A stretch of DNA of 64,000 nt from Dokdonella sp. (lineage in GTDB: Bacteria > Pseudomonadota > Gammaproteobacteria > Xanthomonadales > Rhodanobacteraceae). Made by a program: the position numbers and the translations under genes. Where the stretch lies: positions 124,001-188,000 of the forward strand of contig JADJQH010000008.1 of NCBI GenBank assembly GCA_016712865.1. Direction: 5' to 3'. Under the pieces are notes generated by a model that was given only the letters and a program-made list of their open reading frames with translations, searched no databases and was not told the origin of the DNA. Positions 8,914 through 24,473 of the stretch are shown here, one piece after another (position 1 is the first letter of the stretch; each line of letters opens with the position of its first letter).

Positions 8914-9804
8914 TTGGGCGCCCAGCGCAGTCGAATCCGCCGGATTCTGGACGAAATGTGCGAATTGCCGGTGATCCGCGCGCTGGCCAAGCCGCTTTAC
9001 CGGCGGCGATTTCGCGCACATCGGCGCGGCAATGCGTACTTCGGTGCCTATTCCAGCTTTGCAGAGGCGATGCACGACATTCCGCAAGGCAAGCCGGCGG
9101 ACTACAACACGCAGGCTGCGGCCGATCTCTACAACCATCGTCTGCAGCACGTGGAGGCCAGCGACTATCCGGCGCTGTTCTGGCTGAAGCATTTCCTGGA
9201 TGACGGCGCGCGCCGCATCTTCGACCTGGGCGGGCACGTGGGTCTCAGTTACTACGCATTCGCTCGCCTGGTCGAATACCCCCGTGATCTGCGTTGGCAG
9301 GTCCACGACGTGCCGCTGGTCATGCAGAAGGGGCGTCAGCTCGCGGACGAACGCGGCGTGGCATCGGCACTCGAGTTCGTGGAGCGTGATCAGGCCAGTG
9401 GCTGTGACGTGCTCATGGCCAAGGGCGTGCTGCAATACCTGGATTACGAACTGGCTGGGTTCCTCGTTGGCCTCGATGCATTGCCGCAGCGCTTGCTGAT
9501 CAATCTCACGCCCATGCATCCGCAGCAAACGTGTTTCACCCTGCAGAATATCGGCGTTGCCGTGTGTCCCTACCGTATCAGTGGCGAACCGCAATTCATC
9601 GCCGACCTCGAGGCGCTGGGCTATCGCCTGATGGAACGCTGGGAGCATCATGACCGCGCGATCCGCATACCCTTCGAGCCACAGGCATCCATCGATCGGT
9701 ATCATGGATACTGCTTTGTCCTTGCAGGCGAGCAGGCAAGCGGCGTCCCGCGCGCGGCTCGAATCGACCAGGGGCAGCCGGCGCAAGGCGGGGATATACC
9801 ATGA
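8914..9804 (+). CDS. TIGR04325-type putative SAM methyltransferase, first gene of the NRPS-PKS operon
   Basis: The protein has 296 residues. The family signature AYFGAYSSFAEA lies near the start, and the Rossmann-like motif RIFDLGGHVGLSYYAF matches an SAM-binding region. This fits the TIGR04325 methyltransferases found in polysaccharide and secondary-metabolite loci. The start is uncertain: a TTG at 8914 has GGAGAG five bases upstream, while the first ATG, at 8956, gives 282 residues with a weak site. Upstream frame extensions run into the divergent secreted-protein gene. The stop overlaps the cupin start (ATGA at 9801-9804). It probably methylates the assembly-line product or a sugar; the substrate is unknown. 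Confidence 0.75.
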   Translation: MGAQRSRIRRILDEMCELPVIRALAKPLYRRRFRAHRRGNAYFGAYSSFAEAMHDIPQGKPADYNTQAAADLYNHRLQHVEASDYPALFWLKHFLDDGARRIFDLGGHVGLSYYAFARLVEYPRDLRWQVHDVPLVMQKGRQLADERGVASALEFVERDQASGCDVLMAKGVLQYLDYELAGFLVGLDALPQRLLINLTPMHPQQTCFTLQNIGVAVCPYRISGEPQFIADLEALGYRLMERWEHHDRAIRIPFEPQASIDRYHGYCFVLAGEQASGVPRAARIDQGQPAQGGDIP

Positions 9805-10724
9805 GTGCGACAAATCCGTGTGCCATCGATCTGGACTGGCAGGTTTTTGATCCATGGCGGATCCAGCCGTTCTGCCACCAACTGATGGCGCATCCCTTGC
9901 TGGATATCGGTTCGCTGGTCGAGCTTGGCCAGCGTCTGGAAAGCAAGGGTCGGGTGCGCACCCACAGCAATGATGCGCAGGCCGGCACCTCGTTCAACAG
10001 CGCGCCTCGCCTGCATCCCAATGCACGCTCGGCAGCCGACACGCTGGCGCACATTGCCGATGCGAAAGCCTGGATGTCCCTTCTCAACGTGCAGACCGAT
10101 GCGCAGTACCGCGTGCTGGTGGACGACGTGCTGGATGGTATCGAGCACAGCATTCGCAGCAGGGATCCCGGCATGTGCTATCGCGGCGGCTGGATCTTCG
10201 TCACTTCGCCGCGTACGGTCACGCCCTTCCATTTCGACAAGGAGCACAACTTCCTGTTCCAGGTGCAGGGTCGCAAGAAAGTCTACGTGTGGGACCACCG
10301 CGACACGGTCACCGCGTCCGAGGCCGCACGTGATCGCTTCCACGCCTGTCATGAACGCGACTTGCTTGAGTGGAGCGAGGCCTTGCGAGAACGTGCCCAG
10401 GTGTTCGAACTGCGGCCTGGCGAGGGCGTCTACATGCCGAGCACCAGTCCGCACATGGTCGAGAACGGCGATGGGCCATCCATCACCATGAGCTTCACCT
10501 ACTACACGCGTGCCACCCGGCGCGACAGCTTGCTGCATCGCGCGCATTACCGCCTGCGCGGATATGGACTCAGACTTCCCGCTGTCGGCCAGAGGCCAAT
10601 GCTCGATGCGTTGCTGCACGCGTCACTGCGTTCCATCACCGATGCCAAGGTGTTCGCGCGTCGCCTGGCCGGGCGTTCGATCCGCTCGGACCGTGCCCCG
10701 TATGCGCATGCCGATGTGCACTGA
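9801..10724 (+). CDS. Cupin/JmjC-like Fe(II) oxygenase
   Basis: The protein has 307 residues with a cupin/JmjC-type double-stranded beta-helix core. The metal-binding facial triad is visible as TPFHFDKEHN (His-x-Asp) and the later TSPHMVEN (His). GRKKVYVWD and PGEGVYMPS are typical strands of 2-oxoglutarate-dependent JmjC-like hydroxylases. It is translationally coupled to the methyltransferase (ATGA) and lies three bases before the megasynthase start, so a role as hydroxylase of an amino-acid residue or the peptide product fits. A purely structural cupin cannot be excluded. Confidence 0.75.
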   Translation: MSATNPCAIDLDWQVFDPWRIQPFCHQLMAHPLLDIGSLVELGQRLESKGRVRTHSNDAQAGTSFNSAPRLHPNARSAADTLAHIADAKAWMSLLNVQTDAQYRVLVDDVLDGIEHSIRSRDPGMCYRGGWIFVTSPRTVTPFHFDKEHNFLFQVQGRKKVYVWDHRDTVTASEAARDRFHACHERDLLEWSEALRERAQVFELRPGEGVYMPSTSPHMVENGDGPSITMSFTYYTRATRRDSLLHRAHYRLRGYGLRLPAVGQRPMLDALLHASLRSITDAKVFARRLAGRSIRSDRAPYAHADVH

Positions 10725-10727
10725 CTG

Positions 10728-22921: not shown

Positions 22922-23685
22922 CGGCCGAGCCGCTGTGGATCAGCGTTGCCGGTGGGCGCCTGTTCGGTGTCTTGCACATGCCGGATGTTCCCGTGCGTGC
23001 CGGCATCGTCCTGTGCGCTCCGTTTTTCCACGAGCTGGTGCGCAGCCAGCGCCTGTTTGCCCTGCTGGCCGATGCCCTTCGTGGCCACGGCTTCGCCGTG
23101 TTGCGCTTCGACTATCTCGGCACTGGTGATTCCGAAGGCAGCGACGAATCCTTCACCTTGCTCGGTGCGGCACGCAGTACGGCGGCTGCCGTGGACTTGC
23201 TCGGCCAACGCGCAGGACAGGTGCCATTGATCGGCCTTGGCATCCGCGCGGGCGCACATCCGGCAGCCGAGATGTTCAAGCAGGGGGAGGTCGAACGTCT
23301 CTGGCTCTGGCAGCCGATCCTGCGTGGTCGTGATTATCTTGAGCAGTTGCGCGAACGCGCCCATGTCGAGCGCCAGTCCAGTGAACGCTACGCGCATCCG
23401 CTTCCCGATCTTGCCGAAGACATGGATACCGTCATGGGATTTCCATGTGGTGCTGCCTTGCGTGATGAGCTCGGTCACGCCGAGCTTGCACTTGATGGCA
23501 TGGACGCAACGCGCCTGACCGTTCTCGATGTCAGCGCACCGGAAGGGTTGCCGGCTTTATCCACGATGCTGGTGTTGGACGAATCGCTTGCGGCATGGGC
23601 CGATCAACTCGACATGGCGCGTGTCGCCGTCGCACCGATCAAGGCCCTGGCTGCCCGCCTTGCCGAAACCGGATTTCGAGCATGA
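22918..23685 (+). CDS. Alpha/beta hydrolase-like protein, XrtA hydrolase-2 type
   Basis: The protein has 255 residues with an alpha/beta-hydrolase N-half: VLCAPFFHEL forms the oxyanion-region strand and FAVLRFDYLGTGDSEG is the characteristic loop. The nucleophile elbow reads GIRAG, with Arg where Ser is expected, as in exosortase A-associated hydrolase 2 (TIGR03101), whose elbow is typically GLRLG. A normal Ser esterase mechanism is therefore unlikely. The gene overlaps the NRPS stop and the next hydrolase start by four bases each. A role in release, editing or hand-over of the carrier-bound product is inference from context. Confidence 0.8.
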   Translation: MTAEPLWISVAGGRLFGVLHMPDVPVRAGIVLCAPFFHELVRSQRLFALLADALRGHGFAVLRFDYLGTGDSEGSDESFTLLGAARSTAAAVDLLGQRAGQVPLIGLGIRAGAHPAAEMFKQGEVERLWLWQPILRGRDYLEQLRERAHVERQSSERYAHPLPDLAEDMDTVMGFPCGAALRDELGHAELALDGMDATRLTVLDVSAPEGLPALSTMLVLDESLAAWADQLDMARVAVAPIKALAARLAETGFRA

Positions 23686-24473
23686 GCCAGGAGGCCATCG
23701 TTCAGCTGGGTGGTGACCGCTTCGGCTTGCTCAGTGGCGGCGATGCCAGTGTGCAGGGCGGCACCTGCCTGCTGTTGCTCAATGCCGGATTCATCCATCG
23801 CAGCGGTCCGTTCCGGCTGCATGTGCGCCTTGCCCGGCGACTTGCGCAGGCGGGCATCGCCAGCTTCCGCTTCGATGCGCCCGGAATCGGCGATGCCCTG
23901 GCGCGCAGTGATCGTCCCCTGCTGGAAACCATGCGCGCCGACATGGACGCGCTGGAACAGCAACATGGCTTCCGTCGCTTTGTCGTCGGCGGTTTGTGCA
24001 GCGCGGCCGATCTGGGCTGGCAGCTGGCGCTCGCGGATCCACGCGTGGTCGGCGTGCTGTCGATTGATGGCCTGGCCCGCACGGGGTGGTGGTATCGCTG
24101 GGCACGCCTGCGCCGCCTGCTGGCGAAACCTCCGGCTGCCTGGATGCAGTCCCTGAAGCGACATTCGCGCAGGCGCGCCGCTTCCAGCATGAGTGCCGCC
24201 GAATTGCGTGATTGGCCAGAGCCGGGCGTTGAACGTGGACAGATCAAGGCACTGGTCGAGCGCGGAGTTGCACTGATGTTCCTGTTCACCGGCGGCGCCG
24301 GCTACTTCCTGCATCCACGCCAGTTCGGGGAAACCTACGGCGCGGCGAGCAAGGCCGAATCTGTGCAGTTTGACCACTGGCCGCAGTGCGACCACACGTT
24401 CTTCAAGGAAACGGACAGGCGAAAACTGATCGAGCACCTTGCGCAGTGGATGACGCGACGATTCGCGCCCTGA
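23682..24473 (+). CDS. Alpha/beta hydrolase, XrtA hydrolase-1 type, Cys at nucleophile position
   Basis: The protein has 263 residues with an alpha/beta-hydrolase core: LLLLNAGFIHRSGPFRLHVRLAR, then FRFDAPGIGD, which matches the RFDYRG-type loop. The elbow reads GLCSA, placing Cys where Ser normally lies. Exosortase A-associated hydrolase 1 proteins (TIGR03100) typically show GLCDA there. The late QCDHTFF may give the catalytic His. It is the last gene of the overlapping operon (ATGA at 23682-23685). A Cys-nucleophile acyltransferase or hydrolase acting on thioesters would fit the missing thioesterase; that link is inference. Confidence 0.8.
   Translation: MSQEAIVQLGGDRFGLLSGGDASVQGGTCLLLLNAGFIHRSGPFRLHVRLARRLAQAGIASFRFDAPGIGDALARSDRPLLETMRADMDALEQQHGFRRFVVGGLCSAADLGWQLALADPRVVGVLSIDGLARTGWWYRWARLRRLLAKPPAAWMQSLKRHSRRRAASSMSAAELRDWPEPGVERGQIKALVERGVALMFLFTGGAGYFLHPRQFGETYGAASKAESVQFDHWPQCDHTFFKETDRRKLIEHLAQWMTRRFAP

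Follow-up and report, generated by a model that had tools for sequence, protein, structure and literature searches.

A probable six-gene NRPS-PKS-aminotransferase operon with a putative trans-acting hydrolase pair in an exopolysaccharide locus of Dokdonella sp.

What does a pair of hydrolases resembling those of the exosortase A (XrtA) system do at the end of a thiotemplate assembly line? The nearest families of the pair, TIGR03100 and TIGR03101, are exosortase A system-associated hydrolases graded "hypoth_equivalog"; in the Dokdonella sp. stretch of 64,000 nucleotides analysed here (the window), the pair follows a hybrid of non-ribosomal peptide synthetase and polyketide synthase (NRPS-PKS) in an exopolysaccharide (EPS) locus. 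We consider it probable (about 0.6) that the six genes form an operon for a short aminoacyl-polyketide-peptide in an exosortase-less EPS locus of XrtA type, in which the two predicted hydrolases, HYD1 and HYD2, would replace the thioesterase (TE) in trans. In the open-licence literature we came across no account of NRPS lines within exosortase-type EPS loci and none of what these hydrolases do, which is weak evidence of absence; PMC1569441 contains no mention of hydrolase, ligase, decarboxylase, carrier, synthetase or TIGR031.

The coupled gene run and its assembly line

The run consists of the following genes:

8914..9804, plus strand: methyltransferase (MT) of the TIGR04325 family (190 bits, cut-off 80)
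9801..10724, plus strand: Cupin_8/JmjC-like oxygenase (PF13621, 41.6 bits, cut-off 27.4)
10728..17924, plus strand: NRPS-PKS-aminotransferase (AMT) protein, 2398 aa (Pfam domain matches)
17924..22921, plus strand: NRPS, 1665 aa (C 25-464, A 487-964, PCP 994-1055, a second C, a terminal PCP)
22918..23685, plus strand: HYD1, predicted alpha/beta hydrolase, nearest family TIGR03101
23682..24473, plus strand: HYD2, predicted alpha/beta hydrolase, nearest family TIGR03100

The earlier note had described six coupled genes that overlap by one to four bases or lie three bases apart, and every junction coordinate was confirmed. The overlaps are of 4 bases between the MT and cupin genes (9804 vs 9801), 1 base between the NRPS-PKS-AMT and NRPS genes (17924), and 4 bases both between NRPS and HYD1 (22921 vs 22918) and between HYD1 and HYD2 (23685 vs 23682); the cupin gene, which lies directly 5' of the NRPS-PKS gene in many of the relatives read, ends at 10724, 3 bases ahead of the start at 10728. 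The MT gene opens the run; its start is a TTG at 8914, with the ATG at 8956 as the alternative.

The NRPS-PKS-AMT protein comprises A (residues 212-691), PCP (720-783), KS (806-1181) and AT (1327-1601) domains, an ACP around Ser1743 and a class III aminotransferase (1956-2265), with no Pfam match in its N-terminus (about residues 1-205). The domains expected of an NRPS-PKS-AMT hybrid (A, PCP, KS, AT, ACP, aminotransferase III and C) are all found within one coupled gene set, in the order A-PCP-KS-AT-ACP-AMT / C-A-PCP-C-PCP and without a thioesterase: 74 aa lie between the last PCP motif and the end of the NRPS, and a profile search of its last 400 aa found no PF00975 thioesterase.

The ten-letter A-domain codes, read from alignment columns at presumed code positions, are DAFWLGGTFK for the first domain and DILQLGMVWK for that of the NRPS; code meanings (Val, Gly, Pro) are likewise our assumption. 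Structural matches in the PDB did not settle which substrate the first A domain takes. The AT carries the motif HAFH at residue 1511, which we take to denote malonyl preference, and Lys303 of the AMT (numbering of the aligned region), presumably the PLP lysine, is invariant in 19 rows. Such a line would load an aliphatic amino acid (the code is valine-like), probably add malonate, turn the beta-keto group into an amine by its built-in aminotransferase and then probably add glycine, leaving the chain on a carrier domain that has no thioesterase.

Class III aminotransferase domains also occur in known NRPS-PKS lines of the mycosubtilin and microcystin McyE type. The present line shares with these KS-AT-ACP-AMT followed by a C-A-PCP module; it differs in its A-PCP amino acid loader in front, the absence of a cis thioesterase, the paired trans hydrolases and the EPS locus setting.

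The surrounding exopolysaccharide locus

The flanking genes are listed below; most names in the EPS run rest on matches below cut-off.

2924..3187, plus strand: stand-alone acyl carrier protein (PF00550, 24.4 bits, cut-off 20.8)
3184..4752, plus strand: acyl-CoA ligase-like adenylating enzyme (nearest TIGR03098, 449.9 bits, below the cut-off of 592.35)
6511..7767, minus strand: PLP-dependent decarboxylase, TIGR03099 (573.8 bits, cut-off 478.45)
7835..8737, minus strand: secreted-looking protein with homologues beside the line in relatives
26136..53478, region, strand not specified: EPS biosynthesis genes, among them glycosyltransferases, polysaccharide deacetylases and the next five entries
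34898-36838: asparagine-synthase-like amidotransferase
45410-46684: O-antigen-ligase-like
46681-48234: flippase-like
48231-49586: PaaK/CapK-like
49561-50727: TIGR03088-like glycosyltransferase
63518..64000, minus strand: galE-like gene (by similarity), running past the window end

A stand-alone ACP gene also adjoins the line in two relatives (G059, G073), and EPS gene types like those of 26136..53478 follow it in five. The secreted-looking protein, which has no Pfam or NCBIfam match, ends in IFESGFE; its homologues share 41-65% identity in Proteobacteria and 37% in a MAG labelled Deltaproteobacteria/Myxococcota. Beyond the galE-like gene come TIGR03016-like, tyrosine-kinase-like, TIGR03007 and export-like genes; the interval from galE to the TIGR03016-like gene contains no hydrolase pair. 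The TIGR03007 chain length determinant (G000:C8:190677-192158; 350.9 bits, cut-off 278.85) lies 2.7 kb beyond the window end and 43.8 kb from HYD1.

The EPS locus is of XrtA type, as TIGR03007 scores over its cut-off; it also shares with XrtA loci neighbours similar to TIGR03027/03018/03016 genes and the TIGR03099 decarboxylase. What sets it apart is the exosortase, for which no PF09721 match at E <= 0.001 was found in a genome that is 99.4% complete. Of 26 genomes tested from the same family, five gave a partial exosortase match (28.9-38.1 bits, cut-off 25.7), and the best match in other genomes reached 149-253 bits in 13/25. The placement of the line in an exosortase A-type EPS locus thus stands as to locus type and conservation but not as to the exosortase, and the proposed XrtA set of ACP, ligase and decarboxylase holds for the first and the last but not for the ligase.

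The hydrolase pair and the missing thioesterase

HYD1 scores 76.3 bits against TIGR03101 (cut-off 202.75) and 56.3 bits against TIGR03100 (cut-off 168.45), and HYD2 60.3 bits against the latter; five relatives of each lie in a similar range (42.9-103 bits against TIGR03101 for HYD1, one of them fused; 38.5-97.5 bits against TIGR03100 for HYD2). In a HYD2 tree, rooted at midpoint only, a branch with support 100/100 sets apart the seven XrtA rows, taken from exosortase-bearing genomes, and the HYD2 of the window falls outside this group. Although the two models are still the nearest families, the hydrolases are not strict members of TIGR03101/03100 as had been claimed, which taken strictly is one of the outcomes that the earlier note had named as refuting its claim; given the scores, the separate branch and the missing exosortase match, we rejected a direct XrtA label for them.

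The residues at the nucleophile elbow are nevertheless those of XrtA pairs. Where the nucleophile is expected, HYD1 has an arginine (R110; Arg in 60/60 aligned rows) and HYD2 a cysteine (C106; Cys in 61/61), XrtA rows included in both cases and hydrolase matches of 40 bits or more kept. Candidate partners of C106 are His238 (His in 60/61 rows) and D129; outside the XrtA and fused groups, 48 of 49 rows, that of the window among them, have Asp at position 129, but every one of the 7 XrtA and 5 fused rows has Asn there, a difference that speaks against identical chemistry in XrtA loci. Both structure models (pLDDT 90.6 for HYD1, 87.4 for HYD2) predict an alpha/beta hydrolase fold, and the 50 PDB matches listed for each are generic esterases, lipases and peptidases, so they do not help in choosing between hydrolase and transferase.

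The relation of the pair to the cis thioesterase is more telling. Of the named loci, 69 could be evaluated: the pair occurs without a TE tail in 23, a TE tail without the pair in 34, both together in none, and neither within the stretch seen in 12; a recheck with profiles of both hydrolases upheld the 23 pair loci and found no match in the others. TE tails were called by length, with Pfam run on 8 of the 34: PF00975 was present in 8/8 of these and absent from the 2/2 tested C-termini of pair-bearing lines. Eleven of 80 loci, truncated or without a traceable C-terminus, were left out (L127, L164, L166, L167, L169, L175, L176, L178, L182, L193 and L197), and three (L133, L134, L135) were manually assigned "no TE" on the basis of 70 aa after the last PCP or a fused HYD1. 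One has to keep in mind that most of the 34 TE loci come from Bacteroidota, which makes the exclusion in part a difference between clades, and that the 12 loci with neither count against the rule. Closer to home, two genomes of the same family (G024, G128) have an AMT line 73-74% identical, PF00975 after the last carrier (110 and 118 bits) and no HYD1 match at E <= 0.001; as both belong to one genus, this swap may be a single event. Ideonella oryzae (L138) combines an AMT 70% identical with PF00975 (80 bits) and no hydrolase pair in its 20-kb locus. In Luteimonas J29, HYD1 is fused behind the terminal carrier, and in L192 and 10/19 further genomes read a single ORF encodes HYD1 followed by HYD2.

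NRPS/PKS systems include stand-alone (type II) thioesterases and cysteine thioesterases, and free-standing hydrolases of assembly-line operons often have an editing function. HYD1 and HYD2 could thus be a type II thioesterase for editing, which would free stalled carriers, the chain being released by the last C domain, whose HHxxxDG-type motif is kept in the 26 listed lines (one of them with HQ), or by an enzyme elsewhere. We find this unlikely: editing enzymes usually occur together with a cis thioesterase, whereas pair and TE exclude each other here, and HYD1 sits at the thioesterase position in Luteimonas J29. The best reading, made from sequence comparison, is that HYD1 and HYD2 would form a split, cysteine-dependent module for release (or transfer) of carrier-bound chains; like type II and cysteine thioesterases, they would be alpha/beta hydrolases acting in trans on such chains, differing in having two subunits, one without the usual nucleophile, and in replacing the cis thioesterase rather than standing beside it.

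Distribution across genomes and the proposed role

If the pair serves the line, the two should travel together. The AMT line is present in 80 of 88 family genomes with HYD1 and in 6 of 109 without it (197 in all), counts that ignore shared ancestry. Out of 102 HYD1 genomes at E <= 0.001, the 14 scoring below 30 bits were left out; out of 110 AMT genomes at E <= 1e-50, the 86 over 400 bits were used, the matches left out being mostly HemL-like but also G036 (377 bits) and G114 (379 bits). The two genome collections overlap in part (G130/L126, with identical rows, G188/L186 and G075/L187). Co-occurrence and neighbourhoods in relatives led us to reject a one-off arrangement, the other outcome that the note had named as fatal to its claim; the arrangement is conserved.

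It is highly improbable that we are dealing with an ordinary secondary-metabolite cluster lying by chance beside EPS genes in this lineage, even if the line also occurs far from its own family, in Bacteroidota with their own thioesterase. Indeed, AMT line and TIGR03007 are both present in 81/197 family genomes (~40%) and lie within 60 kb of each other in 62 of the 66 that have both on one contig; in G115, G160, G058, G137 and G188, the line heads the glycosyltransferase run.

A more serious objection is that the pair may serve the polysaccharide, e.g., by (de)acylating sugars or precursors, with the line a mere co-tenant of the locus. Across the family, the pair either follows the line or forms part of the EPS export operon: HYD1 lies within 3.8 kb of TIGR03007 in 63 of 78 same-contig genomes, the line is 15-45 kb away in 48, and both counts speak against a release module. 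This location, mostly not behind the line, also fits a polysaccharide role, as does the presence of TIGR03007 in 87/88 HYD1 genomes; in the five export operons laid out, the pair comes after a TIGR03016-like gene (families determined for G160). Yet among 105 TIGR03007-positive family genomes, 80 have both HYD1 and AMT line, 7 HYD1 only (G139 and G196 being cut by contig ends), 1 the line only and 17 neither (p 3.5e-13): it is the line, not the EPS locus, that HYD1 goes with. The pair also adjoins the line in Comamonadaceae, Sphaerotilaceae, Myxococcota and Planctomycetota loci, and in the exosortase-bearing G790 it lies ~10 kb from the line, in a stretch where no EXP- or TIGR03007-like gene was found and with exosortase genes more than 1.4 Mb away. 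We thus give the polysaccharide role little credence.

Outside the family, AMT was not found at E <= 1e-60 in the 11 genomes whose TIGR03101 match reaches at least 125.9 bits, all of them bearing an exosortase, in contrast to the full NRPS-PKS line seen here. In nine of 11 lower-scoring TIGR03101 genomes the (fused) pair is present although AMT line and exosortase are both lacking; its use in such a different context counts against the release reading. Of the exosortase-bearing loci read, 4/8 have an ACP gene immediately 5' of HYD1.

Returning to the split release module, HYD1, with Arg in the nucleophile place, may be the subunit for docking or activation at the last carrier; HYD2 would take the chain on its cysteine, for release to water or transfer to an acceptor. 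True XrtA hydrolases might, more tentatively, act similarly on the ACP of XrtA loci. The suggestion that these hydrolases serve carrier-bound intermediates thus gains comparative support from the carrier-HYD1-HYD2 order, TE exclusion, HYD1 fusion and the ACP ahead of the pair; that they are XrtA hydrolases proper is not supported by family scores, branch or exosortase search.

Judging from the locus setting, it is plausible that the product is placed on, or acts with, the polysaccharide. The pair could even be an acyltransferase that moves the aminoacyl-beta-amino-glycyl chain from the NRPS onto an EPS sugar or lipid-linked precursor, XrtA hydrolases doing likewise with an acyl group from the free ACP; we regard this as doubtful, the more so as XrtA rows have Asn where line-linked rows have Asp. 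Small-molecule synthesis genetically tied to EPS/PEP-CTERM loci is described in passages of PMC7293339, by a single acyltransferase enzyme there and by an assembly line here; these passages mention no hydrolase pair.

A pair that would replace an NRPS-PKS thioesterase, one of its subunits having no ordinary nucleophile, points to a directly testable role for the related TIGR03100/03101, namely acting on carrier-bound chains. The thiotemplate line is a regular part of the EPS locus in about 40% of the genomes sampled from one family, and one may ask whether a non-ribosomal substituent is attached to the polymer; if the acyltransferase reading is true, a thiotemplate line would decorate a bacterial polysaccharide.

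The gene run, its surroundings and the likely chemistry of the line

Between positions 8914 and 24473, six plus-strand genes follow one another, four junctions overlapping (by 4, 1, 4 and 4 bases) and one leaving a 3-base gap. They include an NRPS-PKS-aminotransferase and an NRPS (together "the line", with AMT its class III aminotransferase domain) and two alpha/beta hydrolases, HYD1 and HYD2 ("the pair"). The six products are assigned by domain matches and are listed here with their neighbors.

308–2527, minus: secreted-looking, tail-bearing protein
2924–4752, left of the run: ACP and ligase
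6511–7767, left of the run, opposite strand to it: TIGR03099 decarboxylase
7835–8737, minus: secreted-looking, tail-bearing protein
within 8914–24473, plus: methyltransferase, TIGR04325
within 8914–24473, plus: Cupin_8/JmjC-like protein
within 8914–24473 (10728–17924), plus: NRPS-PKS-aminotransferase, 2398 aa, A-PCP-KS-AT-ACP-AMT
17924–22921, plus: NRPS, 1665 aa, C-A-PCP-C-PCP
22918–23685, plus: HYD1, alpha/beta hydrolase
23682–24473, plus: HYD2, alpha/beta hydrolase, last gene of the run
24588–25871, plus: secreted-looking, tail-bearing protein
26 to 53 kb, right of the run: glycosyltransferase, deacetylase, amidotransferase, O-antigen-ligase-like, flippase-like and PaaK-like genes
spanning the window's end: galE
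just beyond the window's end: export-like, TIGR03007 chain-length, kinase-like and TIGR03016-like genes

The ACP-ligase-decarboxylase set also adjoins the line in two relatives (G059 and G073, 64–75% identity) and is missing from the stretches read of two others (G098 and G130). Between the exopolysaccharide (EPS) genes and galE lie an ISL3 family transposase (54297–55250) and two proteins (57173–58906 and 61739–63439) with signal-peptide-like starts and N-termini that look alike, neither of which has an NCBIfam match. The tail-bearing proteins, including one at L249:9573–11318, share a short common C-terminus (IFADDFE, IFESGFE, IFANGFD or IFSHGFE); in the searched loci, which overlap, IFxx[GD]F[ED] is terminal in 9 of 2197 ORFs of at least 200 aa, compared with 6 that have it at another position, and this tail is possibly a C-terminal sorting tag of this lineage. 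The 7835–8737 protein, which has neither a Pfam nor an NCBIfam match, is conserved and recurs with the line in a number of relatives, among them Dyella, Luteibacter, Rhodanobacter and a MAG labelled Deltaproteobacteria.

The A-domain codes of the line are DAFWLGGTFK (A1), which we take to be valine-like, and DILQLGMVWK (A2), which we take to be glycine-like; many relatives have close codes but others do not (L129, L133, L136 and L137 are among those that differ), and lines of the split-loader type begin in most cases with a code that we read as proline-like. The expected chain would be an amino acid plus malonate with a beta-amine, followed by glycine. An HHxxxDG-type motif is retained in the second C domain, and since the window's line lacks the A domain belonging to it, loading of the last carrier may fall to A2 or happen in trans. 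Among relatives, this third A domain is intact (its code there being once more one that we take to be glycine-like), without core motifs, or absent, while the second C domain and last carrier stay.

The pair, the line and the EPS locus within Rhodanobacteraceae

We sampled 197 Rhodanobacteraceae genomes, counting HYD1 above 30 bits and AMT above 400 bits and ignoring shared ancestry. HYD1 was found in 88, AMT in 86 and TIGR03007, the chain-length marker of XrtA-type EPS loci, in 105; 80 genomes have both HYD1 and AMT, and 6 of the 109 that lack HYD1 have AMT. The 105 TIGR03007 genomes divide into 80 with both, 7 with HYD1 only, 1 with AMT only and 17 with neither (p 3.5e-13, ancestry ignored); HYD1 therefore tracks the line with the EPS locus held constant. 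Among the seven HYD1-only genomes, G196 has an NRPS on a contig that stops ahead of the AMT part, the contig of G139 starts within the EPS run, and no line with AMT was found in the remaining five (G042, G061, G083, G111 and G194). One of these, G083, carries several tandem HYD1/HYD2-like matches about 35 kb from TIGR03007 (L254, C1:2915000–2934999). In G014, the pair stands behind a line that has no AMT.

AMT and HYD1 are less than 60 kb apart in 62 of the 66 genomes that have them on the same contig, 14 being within 8 kb and 48 at 15–45 kb, and the pair has two places. In five genomes (G115, G160, G058, G137 and G188), the line stands first in a run of glycosyltransferase genes with O-antigen-ligase-like, TIGR03088-like and, in four of the five, PaaK-like genes, and faces an export operon of the order export-TIGR03007-kinase-TIGR03016-HYD1-HYD2 (families assigned in G160), followed by galE in G160 and G115. 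Of the 78 family genomes in which HYD1 and TIGR03007 share a contig, 63 have them at most 3.8 kb apart. The TIGR03016-like gene of the window's genome adjoins galE with no pair between them; the pair sits behind the line instead, and the HYD1 search found no second one in this genome.

Family labels and features of the hydrolases

The earlier note had described XrtA hydrolases of the families TIGR03100 and TIGR03101 coupled to a thiotemplate line; the arrangement is real, and the family names prove looser than stated. The best NCBIfam match of HYD1 is TIGR03101 with 76 bits against a cut-off of 203, and that of HYD2 is TIGR03100 with 60 bits against 168. In the HYD2 tree (61 rows, 60 different, rooted at the midpoint only), seven rows from exosortase-bearing XrtA genomes are split off by a long branch (support 100/100), with the window's HYD2 and its relatives on the other side. 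A search of the window's genome for exosortase (PF09721) gave no match. By the sub-cut-off scores, the tree position and the missing PF09721 match, this XrtA-type EPS locus lacks an exosortase, and its hydrolases are relatives of the XrtA ones. Exosortase-like proteins do occur in the family: in 5 of 26 genomes tested (G099, G098, G050, G059 and G130), PF09721 matches in part, at 28.9–38.1 bits (cut-off 25.7), the best matches in 13 exosortase-positive genomes of the comparison set being 149–253 bits.

Both hydrolases give confident alpha/beta hydrolase models (pLDDT 90.6 for HYD1 and 87.4 for HYD2). Counting one row per source, the nucleophile position is Arg in 60/60 HYD1 rows and Cys in 61/61 HYD2 rows, with the His kept in 60/61 of the latter. 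In the HYD2 model, C106 immediately follows a strand and precedes a helix; D129, the candidate acid, immediately follows the next strand. Position 129 is Asp in 48 rows, Asn in 12 (exactly the seven XrtA rows and five fused rows) and Gly in one (G241), that is, Asp in 48/49 line-linked rows versus Asn in 12/12 XrtA and fused rows, a split that could possibly mark a functional divide between the two settings.

A single ORF covers HYD1 and HYD2, one after the other, in 10 of 19 further genomes, as it does in a Planctomycetaceae locus (L192), which argues that both act together. The fused ORFs (L235–L244) measure 581–1118 aa, and nine of the ten genomes have neither an AMT line nor an exosortase; the tenth, G673, has an exosortase. 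The NRPS of Luteimonas sp. J29 carries HYD1 as a fusion after its terminal carrier. An ACP gene directly precedes HYD1 in four of eight exosortase-bearing loci read (G814, G837, G937 and G861); three more have an ACP-like ORF within about 6 kb (one weak, E 0.007), and in one no such ORF was found.

The pair and the cis thioesterase

Outside the family, AMT (E ≤ 1e-90) was found in 8 genomes of a class-wide sample (10 of 369 in all). A TIGR03101-like gene of at least 83 bits lies within about 13 kb of it in three of the eight (G241, G386 and G367); the other five have none that near, save a 25-bit match in G373. TIGR03101 matches (E ≤ 1e-14) occur in 25 of 398 genomes sampled phylum-wide. Each of the 11 non-family genomes scoring at least 125.9 bits carries an exosortase, and AMT at E ≤ 1e-60 was found in none of them; among the 11 lower-scoring ones, two (G790 and G878) have AMT about 35 kb or less from HYD1, and neither AMT nor exosortase was found in nine.

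A scan of named genomes gave a longer list of loci, whose best 80 (69 evaluable) span Lysobacterales, Burkholderiales, Myxococcota, Planctomycetota, Bacteroidota, Acidobacteriota, cyanobacteria and others. The pair is present in 23 of these 69, for example in Lysobacter, Xenophilus, Variovorax, Aquabacterium and Corallococcus; within the best 80, the HYD1 and HYD2 profiles both match all 23 loci and no others. The pair precedes the line in L146, and in several Burkholderiales an additional gene (about 240 aa) lies between the two.

In the last 400 aa of the window's NRPS, a domain search found C and PP-binding matches only, and no thioesterase. Pair-bearing lines stop 46–96 aa past the last carrier motif, the J29 fusion excepted; 34 loci without the pair have a tail of 282–362 aa after the last carrier, where the carrier motif was found. 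Pfam found a thioesterase (PF00975) in 8/8 long tails tested and in 0/2 pair-bearing C-termini. Within the best 80, pair and thioesterase tail occur together in none of the 69 evaluable loci, and 12 have neither within the stretch seen; for six of these (Dyella, Luteibacter, Rhodanobacter or relatives), the pair may be in the export operon beyond that stretch.

Near relatives are the best tests of a replacement of one by the other. Two family genomes of one genus (G024 and G128) have the line with an AMT 73–74% identical and PF00975 behind the last carrier (110 and 118 bits), with no HYD1 match in a genome search and only TIGR03101 matches of 25–29 bits located far from it; the other four AMT-only family genomes were left out of this comparison, three being truncated and G040 having a different large line. 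Ideonella oryzae (L138), with an AMT 70% identical and the cupin present, has a locus that contains PF00975 (80 bits) but lacks the pair. The earlier proposal that the hydrolases serve carrier-bound intermediates is probably right, and from the comparisons we infer that the pair has a role in release or transfer.
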